From Methanospirillum sp. (lineage in GTDB: Archaea > Halobacteriota > Methanomicrobia > Methanomicrobiales > Methanospirillaceae), in NCBI GenBank assembly GCA_012728895.1, contig JAAYEG010000007.1, positions 1 to 56,772 of the forward strand: a stretch of 56,772 bases of DNA. The letters are read 5' to 3'. The position numbers and the translations under genes were made by a program. Positions 36,307 to 55,535 of this stretch are shown one piece after another; the first letter of the stretch is position 1, and every line of letters begins with the position of its first letter. A model generated the notes under the pieces. The model searched no databases. It was not told the origin of the DNA and was given only the letters and a program-made list of their open reading frames with translations.

Positions 36307-36858
36307 GTGACGGCGCGTGACTGGACGAGGCGACTGGCCCTGCGCGGCGGGACGGGGCCGGGAGCGACCGCCCTGCCCGGGCGCCGGTACCTGGTGCGCG
36401 CCAGGCCCGCCCCCGTCACGGTCGACTGCCCGATCGAGGACGAGGAGGGCGAGCTCGCCTTCTCTGTCGACGAGAGGGCAGTGCGCGAGGGAGACGCGCT
36501 GGTCCTCGGGGACCCGTTCGGCAGGGAGCTCCACCGTGTGCCCGGGGAGAGGCTGTACCTAGGGGAGTCCGTGGAGATCGAGGGGGCCGGCGGCGGCTTG
36601 GCGGCACTGGTCCGCGCGACGCGGGTCAGGACCGTGCGGGGCCGCTGGACCGCGACCGGGCCGGGCTGGGAATCGCTCGAGCTGCGGGGATCCGTCCCCG
36701 ACGACGTGTACGTCATGGCGGCGGGGGAGACGCGGGCGGCGGAGATCTCGAAGCGGTGGTTCCGGCTGAAGAACACGAACGGGGTGGCGATGCCGCCTGG
36801 CGAGGACGGGGGACTGCTGATCATGATCGCGGTGGCGGCCGACCCTATGGCCTGCTGA
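36307..36858 (+). CDS. LURP-one-related (LOR/tubby-like) protein
   Basis: 183 residues from GTG 36307 after GGAGAGGGGGG. The pattern RRYLVRARPAPVTVDCPIEDEEGELAFSVDERAVREGDALVLGDPFGRELHRV, then EISKRWFRL and DGGLLIMIAVAADPM, fits the LURP-one-related beta-barrel family (Tubby-like fold, DUF567). Prokaryotic members have no fixed function; membrane or lipid association has been suggested. It is 36 bases ahead of the K+ channel gene, so the two are likely co-transcribed. Confidence 0.75.
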   Translation: MTARDWTRRLALRGGTGPGATALPGRRYLVRARPAPVTVDCPIEDEEGELAFSVDERAVREGDALVLGDPFGRELHRVPGERLYLGESVEIEGAGGGLAALVRATRVRTVRGRWTATGPGWESLELRGSVPDDVYVMAAGETRAAEISKRWFRLKNTNGVAMPPGEDGGLLIMIAVAADPMAC

Positions 36859-48795: not shown

Positions 48796-50220
48796 ATGTC
48801 CGAGATGGTCCGCTGGATCGCCGAGCACTTCGACGACGTCCCCCCCACCCCCTCGCTGGTGATCGACGCGACCAAGCACATGCGCAAGGCCGAGCGCAAG
48901 CAGCTCTTCTCAGACGACCTGCCCCAGATGAAGACGGCGGAGGGTCGGTGGTTCGAGGGGGTCTGCTACGAGCGTATGCTCCGGCTGGTGGAGCGGACCG
49001 ACCTGATCGGCGGGATTGCCCGCAAGGGTGCCGATGCCCCGTTCGTGGGCCAGAACGCGGCACTGGGCCAGAACGGGCTCTTCTACTCGAACATCGGCGA
49101 CATCAAGATCCGGGGAAATGGCCAGGACCTCGCCGAGTTCGACCTGCTCCTGAGGGACCGCGACGGGAACCTGGCGTTCGCCGAGATCGTGACCTCCCCG
49201 ACCGACATGAAGGAGTTCGAAATCGAGATACAGTTCAAGAAGCGGCTGATCGGGTTCATCTTCGGGCAGGCCCACGTCCCGTTTTTGCTCTACTCCTCGG
49301 TCGACGTCTCCAAGCACCCGATCGTGAAGAGAATCATGAAGGAGCCCGAAAACGCGCTGATCCTGGCCGGCCCGTGCGAGGAGCTCAAGAAGCTGATCCA
49401 CGGACACCCGGTCAAGCACCACACCCGCAAGAGCCCGAAGAACCCGAAGTTCTTCAGGGCCGACGAGGTCCGGACTCGCCGGCAGTTCGACTTCCGGGCT
49501 CTCCACGAGGAGCGGCGGGCACGGTTTCTCAGGATGATTGGGGAGAAGGCGAAGAAAGAGGACTTCACGGAGCCGGACGACATCCCGCCCATCGTCAGGA
49601 AGATCCTCTGCGGGGGGCTGTACCCGTCGGCCGCGAAGGCAGTCTGCGCGAGTTACCCGCTGACCATCCGCGGTAAGCCGATTCCCTGCGGTGATGTGCC
49701 GAAACTCTATTCCAAGGTCGTGCTCGCGGTAAACCTGCCCGACGGGGAGCCGATCATCTACCTGCGCTCGCGAAAGAGGCGGGAGTACCTGAAGATGGTG
49801 CGGGACAAGCAGGGTGGGTTCAAGTTCGAGTCTGCCCGGACGCCCCACATGGCCGGGTTCTTCCTCTGGCTCGAGACCATCACCCCGGTCCTCGGGTCGC
49901 AGGTCACGCATGAGATCCTGATGACCTTCATCGGCCCCGGGCGACAGTCGGCCCCCTTCGTCCCCGGGGGGATCGCGCAGGGCCGGCAGAAAGGGCAGAG
50001 GCCGCAGAAACAGAACGGCGCGACGCCCCAGGGACGGTCGAAGAGCCGTCAGCCGAAAACGACGGACGCCCCCGTCCCGGAGACGAAACCCGTCGAGGAG
50101 GCAGGCGCCGCGAAGGCGCCGAGAAAGCGCCGTCGGCGTCCCCGTAAGAAGCAGGCGACGGACGCCCCGGTGCCCGGCGGCGCGGTTTCCGGCGCCACGG
50201 TGCGGAACAATCCCCTCTGA
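48796..50220 (+). CDS. Uncharacterised protein, possible PD-(D/E)XK-like fold and basic tail
   Basis: 474 residues, not recognised. The N-terminal 170 have the layout of a PD-(D/E)XK core: a helix with Glu54 (EGRWFEGVCYERML), Asp116 in AEFDLLLRDRDG, then E130-I-V132 (LAFAEIVTSP), where nucleases usually have ExK, and a helix QFKKRLIGFIFGQ. The middle (residues 280-380) is globular, with LYPSAAKAVCASYPLTIRGKPI and EPIIYLRSRKRREYLKMV. From about residue 395 it is low-complexity, Lys/Arg/Pro/Gln-rich, with KAPRKRRRRPRKK, as in nucleic-acid-binding tails. It starts seven bases after leuB, so it is probably in that operon. A role with DNA or RNA is inferred only from the tail and the fold guess. 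Confidence 0.65.
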   Translation: MSEMVRWIAEHFDDVPPTPSLVIDATKHMRKAERKQLFSDDLPQMKTAEGRWFEGVCYERMLRLVERTDLIGGIARKGADAPFVGQNAALGQNGLFYSNIGDIKIRGNGQDLAEFDLLLRDRDGNLAFAEIVTSPTDMKEFEIEIQFKKRLIGFIFGQAHVPFLLYSSVDVSKHPIVKRIMKEPENALILAGPCEELKKLIHGHPVKHHTRKSPKNPKFFRADEVRTRRQFDFRALHEERRARFLRMIGEKAKKEDFTEPDDIPPIVRKILCGGLYPSAAKAVCASYPLTIRGKPIPCGDVPKLYSKVVLAVNLPDGEPIIYLRSRKRREYLKMVRDKQGGFKFESARTPHMAGFFLWLETITPVLGSQVTHEILMTFIGPGRQSAPFVPGGIAQGRQKGQRPQKQNGATPQGRSKSRQPKTTDAPVPETKPVEEAGAAKAPRKRRRRPRKKQATDAPVPGGAVSGATVRNNPL

Positions 50221-50346: not shown

Positions 50347-52032
50347 TCACCGGAGCAACACCCATCCGACCGCGTTGGTAACGATCCAGCCGATGCTGAC
50401 CGCGATCCCGATGACAAGGCCAGTCGCGCCCAGATACCTGGGCATCAGGAGGGGATAGGCGACCAGGGCGAGGATGCCGATCCCGACCCAGAGCGCGATG
50501 CCGAGGGCCGTCAGCGCGACTGCCCGCCGCGAACCCTTCGACAACCCTTCGTTCCCGCGACTCGCTCCCACCCCGGGTGTCGGCGCCTCCTCGTCAGCGG
50601 GCGACACCACCGGCGCATCGCCGATCTCTCCCCCGGAACGGAGGAGCAGCGCCTGGAGCTGGTCCTCGGCCTCGTTGCGCCGGTCCCTGATCCCGCCGTT
50701 CGTCGGGTCGAGCTCGACCGCCTCCTCGAGGTCCACCACGGCACCCCGCATCTCCGCGACCGCCCGGGACAGGCCAGGGTCCTCCTCGTCGGCCAGTGCT
50801 GCAGCCCGTTCGATACGGGCGTCGGCCCGCTCCAAGAGGAAGTGGGCGAGCGGGAGCGCCAGAACCTCGCGCTCCCCGAACGGCATCGCCCGCTGTAGGA
50901 GCGCGATCGCGCCGTCGTGGTCCTCCCGGCTGTTCAGAAGCTTCGCCCGCGCGAGCGCCGCGGTCGAGAGGGGGGCCGCGACGCTGGACCGGTCGCCGGA
51001 GATGGCGTGAGCCCGCTCCCAGTGGCCGATCGCCTCGTCGACCCGGTCCTCGTCGATGGCACGCTGCCCGAGCGCGAGACGGACACGGCCCTCGAGATCC
51101 CGGACCTCCTCCGTCTCGCGAACGGGATCGTCGAGCCTCTCGATTGCGCCGAGTGCACTCTCGTACTCCCTGTCGTCGATCAACCCCTCGATCCGGGCGA
51201 GGGGCGAGAAGAGCGGAAGGAGTTCCGGGCGCTGCTCCCCGACCGAGGCCTGGACCTTCTCGAGCAGCCCGACCTCTTCGAGCAGGACCGGTCCTGCCGC
51301 GAGCGCGACGGGCGAGAGCCCCCGCCCCGAGATGACCCGGAGGGTCTGGAGGTTCCGGGCAGCCCGGAGCTCGGTTCGGAAGAGGGCCAGATGTTCCCGT
51401 GCCCGCCCCTCGCCGGGGACGTCGCCCCGGTCCCGAAGCGTCTCCGCCATCCCCTCGAGCTCTTCCGTGAGCCGGGCCTCGAGCCCTTCCGCCACCCTGT
51501 TCCCGGAATCGCCGGAGGCCCTGTTCCCGCTGAGAATTCCCCACTCGGTCCAGAACCCGTCGGACGCGCAGAGGGCGGCGAAACGGGTGAGTGCCGCCTG
51601 CCAGAGCCGGCCGGTGACGTCGGGCGGCGTCGGCAGATCGGGGCCGTTACGCCCCGACGCGCGCGCCTCCCAGTACGAGAGGACCGCGATGGAGTGGGTG
51701 GCCGCAGAGATCGGGAAGCCGCGGCGCTCGACCGCCCGCCATCGCTCGGCCGCCGAGCGACGGGCAGGGGTCACTGAAAGACTCTCGATCGGGTCGTTGA
51801 AGGCGAGCTCATCCAGGTACCGGTCCTGGTAGTAGAAGAGGTCGACGATCGCTCGCCGGACAGGGTCTGTGAGGTCCGACCGGGCCACCTCGCGCTCCGC
51901 GTCCGTCGCCGTGCCTTCAGGGATCCCGACCCCCGTATCGCCGGTATACACGCTCTCGTCTACTCCCGATCCCGGCTCGACCCCCAGCAGGTCGTAGGGT
52001 GTCGGGCCCCGCTGAAGTGGATCCCGTTTCAT
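50347..52032 (-). CDS. TPR-type membrane-anchored protein with J-like N-terminus
   Basis: 561 residues, function unknown. The start has TPYDLLGVEPGSGVDE, then LTDPVRRAIVDLFYYQDRY. This resembles the opening and closing parts of a J domain but has no HPD motif, so it is not a regular DnaJ. Residues 90-170 are helical with several Trp. Residues 280-470 look like tetratricopeptide-type helical repeats (DEAIGHWERAHAISGDRS, HDGAIALLQRAMPFGE, VDLEEAVELDPTNGGIRDRR). Two C-terminal membrane helices (about 508-560) anchor it. It may be an assembly or chaperone-related scaffold. Transcribed alone, convergent with the 48.8 kb gene. Confidence 0.7.
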   Translation of the reverse strand: MKRDPLQRGPTPYDLLGVEPGSGVDESVYTGDTGVGIPEGTATDAEREVARSDLTDPVRRAIVDLFYYQDRYLDELAFNDPIESLSVTPARRSAAERWRAVERRGFPISAATHSIAVLSYWEARASGRNGPDLPTPPDVTGRLWQAALTRFAALCASDGFWTEWGILSGNRASGDSGNRVAEGLEARLTEELEGMAETLRDRGDVPGEGRAREHLALFRTELRAARNLQTLRVISGRGLSPVALAAGPVLLEEVGLLEKVQASVGEQRPELLPLFSPLARIEGLIDDREYESALGAIERLDDPVRETEEVRDLEGRVRLALGQRAIDEDRVDEAIGHWERAHAISGDRSSVAAPLSTAALARAKLLNSREDHDGAIALLQRAMPFGEREVLALPLAHFLLERADARIERAAALADEEDPGLSRAVAEMRGAVVDLEEAVELDPTNGGIRDRRNEAEDQLQALLLRSGGEIGDAPVVSPADEEAPTPGVGASRGNEGLSKGSRRAVALTALGIALWVGIGILALVAYPLLMPRYLGATGLVIGIAVSIGWIVTNAVGWVLLR

Positions 52033-52145: not shown

Positions 52146-52210
52146 CGGGAATGGCATGGTCTGCCGGCGAGAGAAAAGGCCATCTGCATGCGGGCCGAAA
52201 CCCTCAGCGG

Positions 52211-52654
52211 ATGTCCCCGACGATCCTGCTCGTCCCCGTGGAACCCGCACCCACCCGCGAAGTCCTGGAGGATCTCGCCGCCCGACTCCTGACCGCGTTC
52301 GGCCGCACGGTCGATCTCCGGGAGCCCTTGCGGCCCCCGTCCGCCGCGGTGATCTGCCCGGACCTCTGCGCCGCCGCCCCGGTCGCCGGCGCCGTCGCGG
52401 CCACCTTGGGCTGCGGGTGCCGCGACCTGCTAATCGGCGTGACGGCGGCATCCATTGCCGGCAACGGGCCGCCGGCGCCCAGGACCTGCGGCGGCGTCCT
52501 CCTGCTCTCGGCGCCGCGGGGCGCCTCGCCGCACTCCCTCGTCCGTGAGGTCGGCCTCCATGCCGGCCTCGGGGACTGCCCGGACCCGGGTTGCGCCATG
52601 CACCCGCAGGGCGAGGGGGCCGACCTCTGCCGCGCCTGCCGCGGACGGTGCTGA
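52211..52654 (+). CDS. Degenerate archaemetzincin-like protein, catalytic histidines replaced
   Basis: 147 residues from ATG 52211 (MSPTILLVPVEP). The opening matches archaemetzincins, archaeal zinc metalloproteases whose active site is HExxHxxGxxHCx4CxM followed by CxxC. Here the aligned stretch is R112-E113-V-G-L116-H-A-G119-L-G-D122-C123 with C128, M130, C140 and C143. All three zinc-binding histidines are changed (to Arg, Leu and Asp), while the glutamate, the glycine, the methionine and the four structural-zinc cysteines remain. The middle is shortened (IGVTAASIAGNGPPAP). It is probably not a protease. A binding or regulatory role, or gene decay, would both fit; the intact frame and conserved cysteines favour function. 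Confidence 0.8.
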   Translation: MSPTILLVPVEPAPTREVLEDLAARLLTAFGRTVDLREPLRPPSAAVICPDLCAAAPVAGAVAATLGCGCRDLLIGVTAASIAGNGPPAPRTCGGVLLLSAPRGASPHSLVREVGLHAGLGDCPDPGCAMHPQGEGADLCRACRGRC

Positions 52655-52766: not shown

Positions 52767-55535
52767 TCAACCGGGCGGGGCGGCGGCAGCGGCGGCGCTT
52801 CCCGCCGTCATCCCCCGGTTCCTGGAACGGAGGACAGCCTTGTAGACCTCCCCGATGCCGAGCAGCACCACGCCCGGGACGATGCAGAGCAGCCACTGGT
52901 CCGGCGTCAGCGGGACGGTCGAGAAGAGCGCCTGGAAGATGCGGGTCTCGGTCATCAGGATCGAGCCGAGGACGACCCAGAGATAGGCGTACACGAGACG
53001 GGCGTTCGAGAACGTCGAGCTGCTGAACGCGGTGTCCGCCGGGAACCGGAGGTTCAGCGCGACGGCGATGTTCATGAGCGAGAGCGAGACCAGCGCCATG
53101 GTCTGCCCGACCTGGAACGAGCCGTAGGCGGTCTTACCGACCTGGAAGAGGATTAGCGTCCCTGCGGCCATGAATGCGCCGACGACGAGGAGCCGAACGT
53201 ACATCCCCCGGCTGATGATCGCCTCGTCCGCCGGGCGGGGCCGGCGCAGCATGATCCCCGGCGACGCTGTGTCCATCCCGAGCATCATCCCGATCGGGGC
53301 GACGATCAGCATGTGTATCCAGAGCACCTGCGCCGGGCTGAAGAGAGCCGTGCCCGCGATCCCGAAGACCGACGACCCCGTGAACGCCAGAACGAACATG
53401 AAGAGGTTCGCGATCTGGATCCGCAGGAACTTCTGCAGGTTGTCGTAGACCTTCCGCCCCTCCTCGACGGCCGAGATGATCGTCGCGAAGTTGTCGTCGG
53501 TCAGGATCATCTTCGCCGCGCCCTTTGCGACGTCCGTGCCCGTGATACCCATGGCGATGCCGATATCGGCCGCCTTCAGGGCGGGGGCGTCGTTGACACC
53601 GTCCCCGGTCATGGCCACGATGTTGCCGGTCCGCTTCAGGACGTTCACCAGCTTGACCTTGTGCTCGGGCGCGACGCGGGCGACCACCCCAATCCCGTCG
53701 ATCTCCCGGGCCGCCTCCTCGTCGCCCATCGCGGCAAACTCGGCGCCCGTGATCGCGCGCCCCTCGATGCCGAGCTCGCGGCCGATCGCGCCGGCCGTGA
53801 CCGCGTGGTCCCCGGTGATCATCCTGACCCGGATCCCCGCGCGCCGCGCCGTCTCGATCGCGTCCCGGACCTCGGTGCGGGGCGGGTCGACCTGCCCCAC
53901 GAACGCGGTCATCACCAGGTCCTGCATCAGCGGCATCAGGTCCGCCCCGGGGTCGAACGCCACCGGGTCCAGGTCCCGCTGCGCGAACGCCAGGACGCGC
54001 ATGCCATCGGCGGCGATCCGCTCGTTCTCGGCCAAGATCATCGCCCGGTCCCCGGCGGAGAGGGTCCGGATCGAGCCGTCGGGCATCAAACCGTACGCGG
54101 CGCGCCCGAGCACCACGTCCGGCGCGCCCTTGACATAGGCCCGGACCACGGGCCAGCCGTCGGCGCCGGTCATCCGGTGGAAGGTCGCCATGAACTTGTA
54201 GTCGGAGTCGAACGGGATGCTCGCGAGCCGCGGGGTGTTCCGGCGGAACTCCTCCACGTTCACGCCGCCCTTCTGCGCCAGGACGTAGAGCGCGCCCTCC
54301 GTCGGGTCGCCGATCACCTCGCCGTCCCGGACCTCGGTGTCGATGCAGAGCGCGCAGGGAAAGAGGACGGGGTCCAGGTCTTCGTGCTCGTCCCCGCGCG
54401 TCCGCTCGATCCGCCCCTCGAAGCTGTAGCCCTCCCCCGAGACGGTGTAGCGGTGCCCGACCGTCGAGATGACCCGGACGGTCATCTGGTTCAGGGTCAG
54501 GGTCCCGGTCTTGTCCGAGTTGATGGCCGACGTCGAGCCCAGGGTCTCGACCGCGGGCAGGCTCTTCATGATCGCGTTCTTCTTCGCCATCTCGACGGTC
54601 GCGAGCGCCAGGATCGTGGTGACGACGGCGGGCAGGGCGTCGGGGATCGAGCCGATCGCGAGCGAGACGCCGATCGTGAAGAGGTCCGTGAACGACTGGC
54701 CCTGGCGGAGCCCGATCACGACGATCGAGAGGAAGGCCAGCGCCGCCATCCCGATGATGAAGAGCGTGACCCGGTCGATCTGCCGGGTGAGCGGGGTCTT
54801 CTCCTGCCGTGTCTCGCGGAGCATGGTCGCGATGTGGCCGACCGCCGAGCGCATGCCGGTCTCGGTCACCGCGATCTCGCCGTGGCCCCGGGTCACGCCG
54901 GTGTTCATGAAGGCCATGTTCACCCGGTCGCCGAGGGGCGGGTCCGGCGCCGCGATCGCCCCGGTGGTCTTCTCGACGGCGGTGCTCTCGCCCGTGAGCG
55001 CCGCCTCCTCGATCTGGAGGTTCGCGGCCGCGACGACCCGCCCGTCGGCCGGGACGCGGTCGCCCGCGTCCAGGATCACGATGTCGCCGGGGACGACCTG
55101 GTCGGCCTCGACCTGGACGATCCCGCCGTCGCGCCGCACCTTCGCGACGATCCGCATCATCCGGTTCAGCTCGGCGACGCTCGCCGCCGCCTTCTCTTCC
55201 TGCTTGTAGCCCATCAGGGCGATGAAGAGGGTCAGCACGATCAGAAGATAGAACGTCCGGTACTCGCCGATGAAGTAGCTCACGATCGCGGCCAGGACCA
55301 GCACGATCTGCATGTACTCCTTGTACTGCCGCAGGAACCGCTGCCAGGCGGGGCTCCGCTTCTCCTCCTCGAGCACGTTCCGGCCGTGCACCGCGAGCCG
55401 CGCCGAGGCTTCTGCCGAGCTGAGCCCCTCCTCCCGGGTGACGCCGAGCCGCTGCTCGACCTCCTCCGGGTTCAGGGAATACCAGGCCGTCCCGTCGCAC
55501 GCTTCACCGGGCGGTGGCGGCGCCGGGTCAGCCAT
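52767..55535 (-). CDS. P-type cation-transporting ATPase (P2-like, ion specificity unclear)
   Basis: 922 residues. A cation ATPase N-terminus (VEQRLGVTREEGLSSAEASARLAVHGRN) is followed by the actuator loop ALTGESTAVEK, phosphorylation site D341 in SDKTGTLTLNQMT, KGAPDVVL, RMITGDHAVTA and AMTGDGVNDAPALKAADIGIAM, then six C-terminal helices. Overall it resembles PacL/Ca2+ and H+ pumps. Ion-site segments differ from SERCA: helix 4 reads IPDALP instead of PEGLP, and helix 6 reads WIHMLIVAPIG where SERCA has the Asn and Asp calcium ligands. The transported ion is therefore open. The ribosome site GAGGAGGT precedes ATG 55535. Confidence 0.88.
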   Translation of the reverse strand: MADPAPPPPGEACDGTAWYSLNPEEVEQRLGVTREEGLSSAEASARLAVHGRNVLEEEKRSPAWQRFLRQYKEYMQIVLVLAAIVSYFIGEYRTFYLLIVLTLFIALMGYKQEEKAAASVAELNRMMRIVAKVRRDGGIVQVEADQVVPGDIVILDAGDRVPADGRVVAAANLQIEEAALTGESTAVEKTTGAIAAPDPPLGDRVNMAFMNTGVTRGHGEIAVTETGMRSAVGHIATMLRETRQEKTPLTRQIDRVTLFIIGMAALAFLSIVVIGLRQGQSFTDLFTIGVSLAIGSIPDALPAVVTTILALATVEMAKKNAIMKSLPAVETLGSTSAINSDKTGTLTLNQMTVRVISTVGHRYTVSGEGYSFEGRIERTRGDEHEDLDPVLFPCALCIDTEVRDGEVIGDPTEGALYVLAQKGGVNVEEFRRNTPRLASIPFDSDYKFMATFHRMTGADGWPVVRAYVKGAPDVVLGRAAYGLMPDGSIRTLSAGDRAMILAENERIAADGMRVLAFAQRDLDPVAFDPGADLMPLMQDLVMTAFVGQVDPPRTEVRDAIETARRAGIRVRMITGDHAVTAGAIGRELGIEGRAITGAEFAAMGDEEAAREIDGIGVVARVAPEHKVKLVNVLKRTGNIVAMTGDGVNDAPALKAADIGIAMGITGTDVAKGAAKMILTDDNFATIISAVEEGRKVYDNLQKFLRIQIANLFMFVLAFTGSSVFGIAGTALFSPAQVLWIHMLIVAPIGMMLGMDTASPGIMLRRPRPADEAIISRGMYVRLLVVGAFMAAGTLILFQVGKTAYGSFQVGQTMALVSLSLMNIAVALNLRFPADTAFSSSTFSNARLVYAYLWVVLGSILMTETRIFQALFSTVPLTPDQWLLCIVPGVVLLGIGEVYKAVLRSRNRGMTAGSAAAAAAPPG

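Follow-up and report, generated by a model that had tools for sequence, protein, structure and literature searches.

Introduction

Archaemetzincins without peptidase activity are already known. CarG from Myxococcus xanthus is an archaemetzincin-type protein that lacks protease activity, binds zinc and serves as a transcription cofactor in complex with CarD (PMC8156234, PMC4374960, PMC3427221); its motif is given as HQx2Hx2Ex2HCx4CxMx16Cx2C, with two zincs bound (PMC8156234). The peptidase status of vertebrate AMZ1 is doubted in PMC3427221, which describes a replaced zinc ligand for the third histidine only and names Asp as a possible third metal ligand in some metzincins.

The gene described here lies at 52211–52654 (+ strand) of the window, by which we mean the whole 56,772-nucleotide stretch of DNA that was analysed. 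Its product resembles CarG, as portrayed in those sources, in its similar size, its retained Cys4 motif and its predicted lack of protease function. CarG, however, keeps its histidines and a 16-residue Cys4 loop, whereas the present protein has no zinc histidines, a 9-residue loop and three new cysteines. It does not contain the CarG motif and, as the histidines of CarG are absent here, we do not class it as CarG. AMZ1 also carries a replaced zinc ligand, but the change described there affects a single histidine. With AfAmzA, MkAmzA and MlAmzA (MEROPS family M54) the protein shares the predicted fold, the Met-turn methionine, the Cys4 cysteines and the N-terminal half of the sequence; it is shorter than these enzymes and lacks their HExxHxxGxxH motif, F-x-F-G edge and loop signature. 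In the open-access literature on archaemetzincins and family M54 we found no form in which the three histidines and the substrate edge have disappeared, Cys4 has been retained and three cysteines are new.

We consider it rather probable that the gene encodes a maintained pseudoenzyme, a zinc-stabilised binding protein without protease activity. One lineage has discarded the catalytic zinc site and the substrate edge but kept the fold and the Cys4 site. It has thereby separated two parts of the protein, a natural experiment on whether the Cys4 module serves a function by itself. The gene would be an archaeal case alongside CarG and points to repeated conversion of a protease fold into a binding protein.

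Gene and recognition by family models

The open reading frame begins with ATG at 52211, ends with a stop codon at 52654 and encodes 147 residues. A second in-frame ATG is found upstream at 52151; the starts of the orthologues correspond to 52211. The C-terminal part of the protein reads V-R-E-V-G-L-H-A-G-L-G-D-C-P-D-P-G-C-A-M-H...L-C-R-A-C. Single-sequence scans with Pfam and NCBIfam returned no family, and the protein does not reach the curated Pfam cut-off for M54 (PF07998). Matches below threshold were obtained for three of the six orthologues with the Pfam M54 model (best E 0.11) and for four with that of NCBIfam (best E 0.021). Since these models miss the protein, others of its kind would stay unannotated. 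No match was found in a sequence search of solved structures, nor any relative in one scan of viral contigs.

Homology and predicted fold

An alignment of the six orthologues matched that of B-type M54 archaemetzincins in hhalign with a probability of 99.2 and an E value of 5.7e-19 over 143 columns, and that of A-type M54 with a probability of 83 and an E value of 1e-6. When the six-row profile was run against 199 genomes of the order, canonical M54 genes were found through either the N-terminal half (residues ~4–84) or the C-terminal half (~105–145), and in six genomes both halves of one canonical gene were matched. The homology to archaemetzincins is more than chance.

The AlphaFold model, for which the input alignment held only six sequences, has a mean pLDDT of 87.1 and a pTM of 0.83. 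The five best Foldseek rows are all archaemetzincins (2x7m, 3lmc, 3zvs with two chains, and 4axq). Superposition with VIA-align gave Z 13.1 and an r.m.s.d. of 3.1 for 132 aligned residues of 3zvs, Z 13.1 and 3.1 for 134 residues of 4axq, Z 12.3 and 3.6 for 140 residues of 2x7m, and Z 11.5 and 3.4 for 138 residues of 3lmc. Other metzincins follow closely, from Z 11.3, so the structure alone identifies a metzincin and the archaemetzincin identity comes from the sequence.

Rows for comparison (32 B-type and 46 A-type) were taken from M54 matches with an assigned locus and chosen by the pattern HE..H.....HC, and the histidines present in all 32 B-type rows are therefore there by selection. Among 65 loci scanned for this pattern, 56 carry it, eight are pseudo-archaemetzincin loci and one (L010) ends in HS. 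The tree holds 64 of 84 rows (6/6 pseudo-archaemetzincin, 32/32 B-type and 26/46 A-type). In it the six orthologues are a single clade (100/100) with a long stem, which measures 2.4 changes per column. Together with the B-type sequences (the 'IILVPIG' M54 subfamily), they split from the A-type at 100/100; their exact sister within the B-type is poorly supported (82/81). The tree carries warnings for long branches and for odd composition in two of the pseudo-archaemetzincin rows.

Catalytic site, substrate edge and structural zinc site

Residues R112, E113, L116, G119, D122, C123, C128, M130, C140 and C143 align with the archaemetzincin consensus H-E-x-x-H-x-x-G-x-x-H-C-x4-C-x-M-x16-C-x-x-C. 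The former HExxHxxGxxH motif (residues 112–122, 52544–52576, + strand) reads R-E-V-G-L-H-A-G-L-G-D, and the alignment bears out the earlier note, which had placed Arg112, Leu116 and Asp122 at the three catalytic histidines. None of these histidines is kept in any of the six orthologues: the first position is Arg throughout, the second is Arg in four, Leu in one and Ala in one, and the third is Asp in four, Ser in one and Ala in one. G119, C123, C128, M130, C140 and C143, which the note had counted as remaining, are invariant in all six; Glu113, also on its list, is no conserved remnant (Glu in two orthologues, Ala in four).

A catalytic centre of this composition is unable to bind zinc in the usual way, and the protein should thus be inactive. 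The metzincin fold is kept and four of the six orthologues have Asp122, a residue type that, according to PMC3427221, can be the third ligand in some metzincins, so that a peptidase still active with other metal ligands might be imagined; it is highly improbable given that the first ligand is Arg in 6/6, the catalytic Glu is Ala in 4/6 and the substrate edge is missing.

Two signatures, the F-x-F-G bulge of the substrate-binding edge and a TDRK-type loop that follows the Met-turn, are each present in 32/32 B-type rows and in 0/6 orthologues. In the hhalign alignment the stretch that leads from the last strand to the active-site helix is also short of about 16 residues. With these three elements gone, binding of a peptide in the manner of a protease, which the note had proposed to persist, is unlikely. 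It is possible that some other kind of partner is bound.

The segment that follows the former motif, C-x4-C-x-M-x9-C-x2-C (residues 123–143, 52577–52639, + strand), comprises the structural Cys4 site and the Met-turn and is kept in all six orthologues. Against the archaemetzincin criterion C-x4-C-x-M-x17-C-x2-C, all of its residues are present in 6/6 and the loop is shorter: the spacing from Met to Cys is nine residues in the orthologues versus 16 in 32/32 B-type rows. The retention of these cysteines and of the Met-turn points to a C-terminal zinc module that continues to stabilise the fold, although with a loop seven residues shorter than that of its relatives zinc binding at Cys4 is not certain.

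Conservation and selection

Orthologues were found in six of the 149 genomes searched, all within the genus of the present gene, where they occur in six of seven genomes. A search of 232 genomes of the class again gave six strong matches, and a scan of the genome collection gave five loci, titled Methanoregulaceae, Methanomicrobiales or Euryarchaeota MAGs. In the seventh genus genome (G002) the TPR-like gene that neighbours the locus begins at the first base of its contig and the position of the pseudo-archaemetzincin is unassembled; the absence there is accordingly not counted as a loss.

All three histidines are lost in every orthologue, as the note had proposed to check, and the substitutions are not unique to one genome. 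A sequencing or assembly error at 52544–52576, which the note had held open, is refuted by the same losses in five other public MAG contigs, and its probability is practically nil. As the six orthologues share the losses and form one clade, the simplest account is a single loss of the catalytic site that predates the diversification of the genus.

The ratio dN/dS (Nei–Gojobori) is 0.27–0.76 and is below 1 in 15/15 orthologue pairs, these values being rough on GC-rich third positions (GC3 0.72–0.93). The upper value comes from a pair that includes the present gene, and constraint is thus loose over much of the protein. Identity of the orthologues to the protein within the genus is 42–63%, compared with 82–86%, where aligned, for the nearby gene 48796–50220. 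Such fast evolution and the lost catalytic residues are what a pseudogene that had stayed open by chance would show, but the frames are open, without a stop, in six genomes, dN/dS is below 1 in every pair and the cysteines are invariant, all of which makes a pseudogene very unlikely. The view of the note that the protein is a maintained pseudo-protease and not the result of random decay is upheld by the shared losses, by dN/dS, which is not raised, and by the intact archaemetzincin in the same genome (see below). That the gene is kept under purifying selection implies that its product has a function, for which partner binding is the simplest candidate.

New cysteines

Invariance is concentrated in the cysteines: seven of the ten cysteines of the protein are at invariant positions compared with 28 of the 137 other positions (Fisher p 0.0018). 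A new G-C-G-C segment (residues 67–70, 52409–52420, + strand), which is not typical of M54, contains Cys68 and Cys70, invariant in 6/6 orthologues within the segment G-C-G-C-R. A further new and invariant cysteine, Cys93 (52487–52489, + strand), stands ahead of strand 97–100, where the canonical F-x-F-G edge is missing. Among the 32 B-type rows, Cys occurs at column 68 in one and at column 93 in four, and at column 70 it is not among the six commonest residues. In the AlphaFold model Cys70 precedes strand 73–78 and Cys93 precedes strand 97–100. In metzincins the strands that correspond to these two are neighbours. His131 is likewise invariant in the six orthologues.

These features would fit a protein in which Cys68-x-Cys70 and Cys93, perhaps with His131, form a new metal or redox site in exchange for the lost catalytic zinc site and the structural Cys4 zinc is kept, and which acts as a metal or redox sensor, carrier or regulator. 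The invariance of the four residues, the rarity of Cys at columns 68 and 93 of the B-type and the placement of Cys70 and Cys93 before neighbouring strands speak for it. On the other hand, residues 87–92 of the model have pLDDT below 50, the invariance could come from a disulfide or from packing, and His131 is found in 5/32 B-type rows too. We regard this reading as possible but rather unlikely; if it were true, methanogens would have made a sensor or regulator out of a protease.

Proposed origin and mode of action

For the favoured reading, a binding protein stabilised by the Cys4 zinc, the following course is proposed. The ancestor of this Methanoregulaceae genus would have carried a B-type archaemetzincin gene that lost its catalytic zinc site and substrate-binding edge and was then kept by selection. 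The product would be compact, with a metzincin fold that one zinc, bound at the C-terminal Cys4 site, probably holds together. It would lack protease activity and act by binding a partner in a CarG-like mode, and the partner of CarG need not be shared.

Intact archaemetzincin in the same genomes

The genome that contains the window has one M54 gene above the Pfam cut-off. It is of the A-type and carries HEIGHLVGLEHC. An A-type archaemetzincin with an intact motif is present in all seven genus genomes (one in each of the other six), and the second, intact archaemetzincin that the note had suggested looking for is thus present.

The reverse pattern was observed in the open reading frame 1474–2028 (− strand) of locus L010 (genome G096, C14), which has HELGHTYGLPH intact and a disrupted Cys4 site, with HS in place of HC and C-E-E-D in place of CxxC. 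G096 carries a second M54 match on C3.

Gene neighbourhood

The divergent neighbour at 50347–52032 (− strand) encodes 561 residues with weak Pfam TPR matches and is confined to the genus of the present gene (six of 61 genomes). This TPR-like gene lies upstream of the pseudo-archaemetzincin in loci L038, L040, L041 and L042, with another gene between the two in L041 and a comparable gap of 2.4 kb in L042. Its product has a hydrophobic C-terminus, and its N-terminus (T-P-Y-D-L-L-G-V-E-P-G) presumably resembles the start of a J-domain. On the other side, a P-type ATPase-like gene (52767–55535, − strand) adjoins the pseudo-archaemetzincin, as it does in G005 (L038, 4603–7357, − strand); no such match was found in the other four orthologue loci compared. 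The regions around six canonical B-type genes gave no match above 80 bits to the open reading frames of the window.

Directly downstream of the pseudo-archaemetzincin and on the same strand, a LOR gene (PF04525) is found in four of six genomes (G001, G003, G004 and G006). In G005 the LOR gene lies on the same contig, past the P-type ATPase, and in the genome of the present gene the closest LOR copy sits on another contig. Ahead of the LOR gene, the intergenic regions compared contain a T-rich stretch that could end transcription. LOR relatives occur in seven order-level genomes outside the genus, and the pseudo-archaemetzincin matches among the 149 genomes are all inside it. The functional link to the LOR gene is weak, and the associations with the TPR-like and LOR neighbours are suggestive only. 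Within the window, a divergent LOR-family gene is located at 36307–36858 (+ strand; Pfam E 0.0005, below the cut-off) and is one of three LOR-like matches in the genome.
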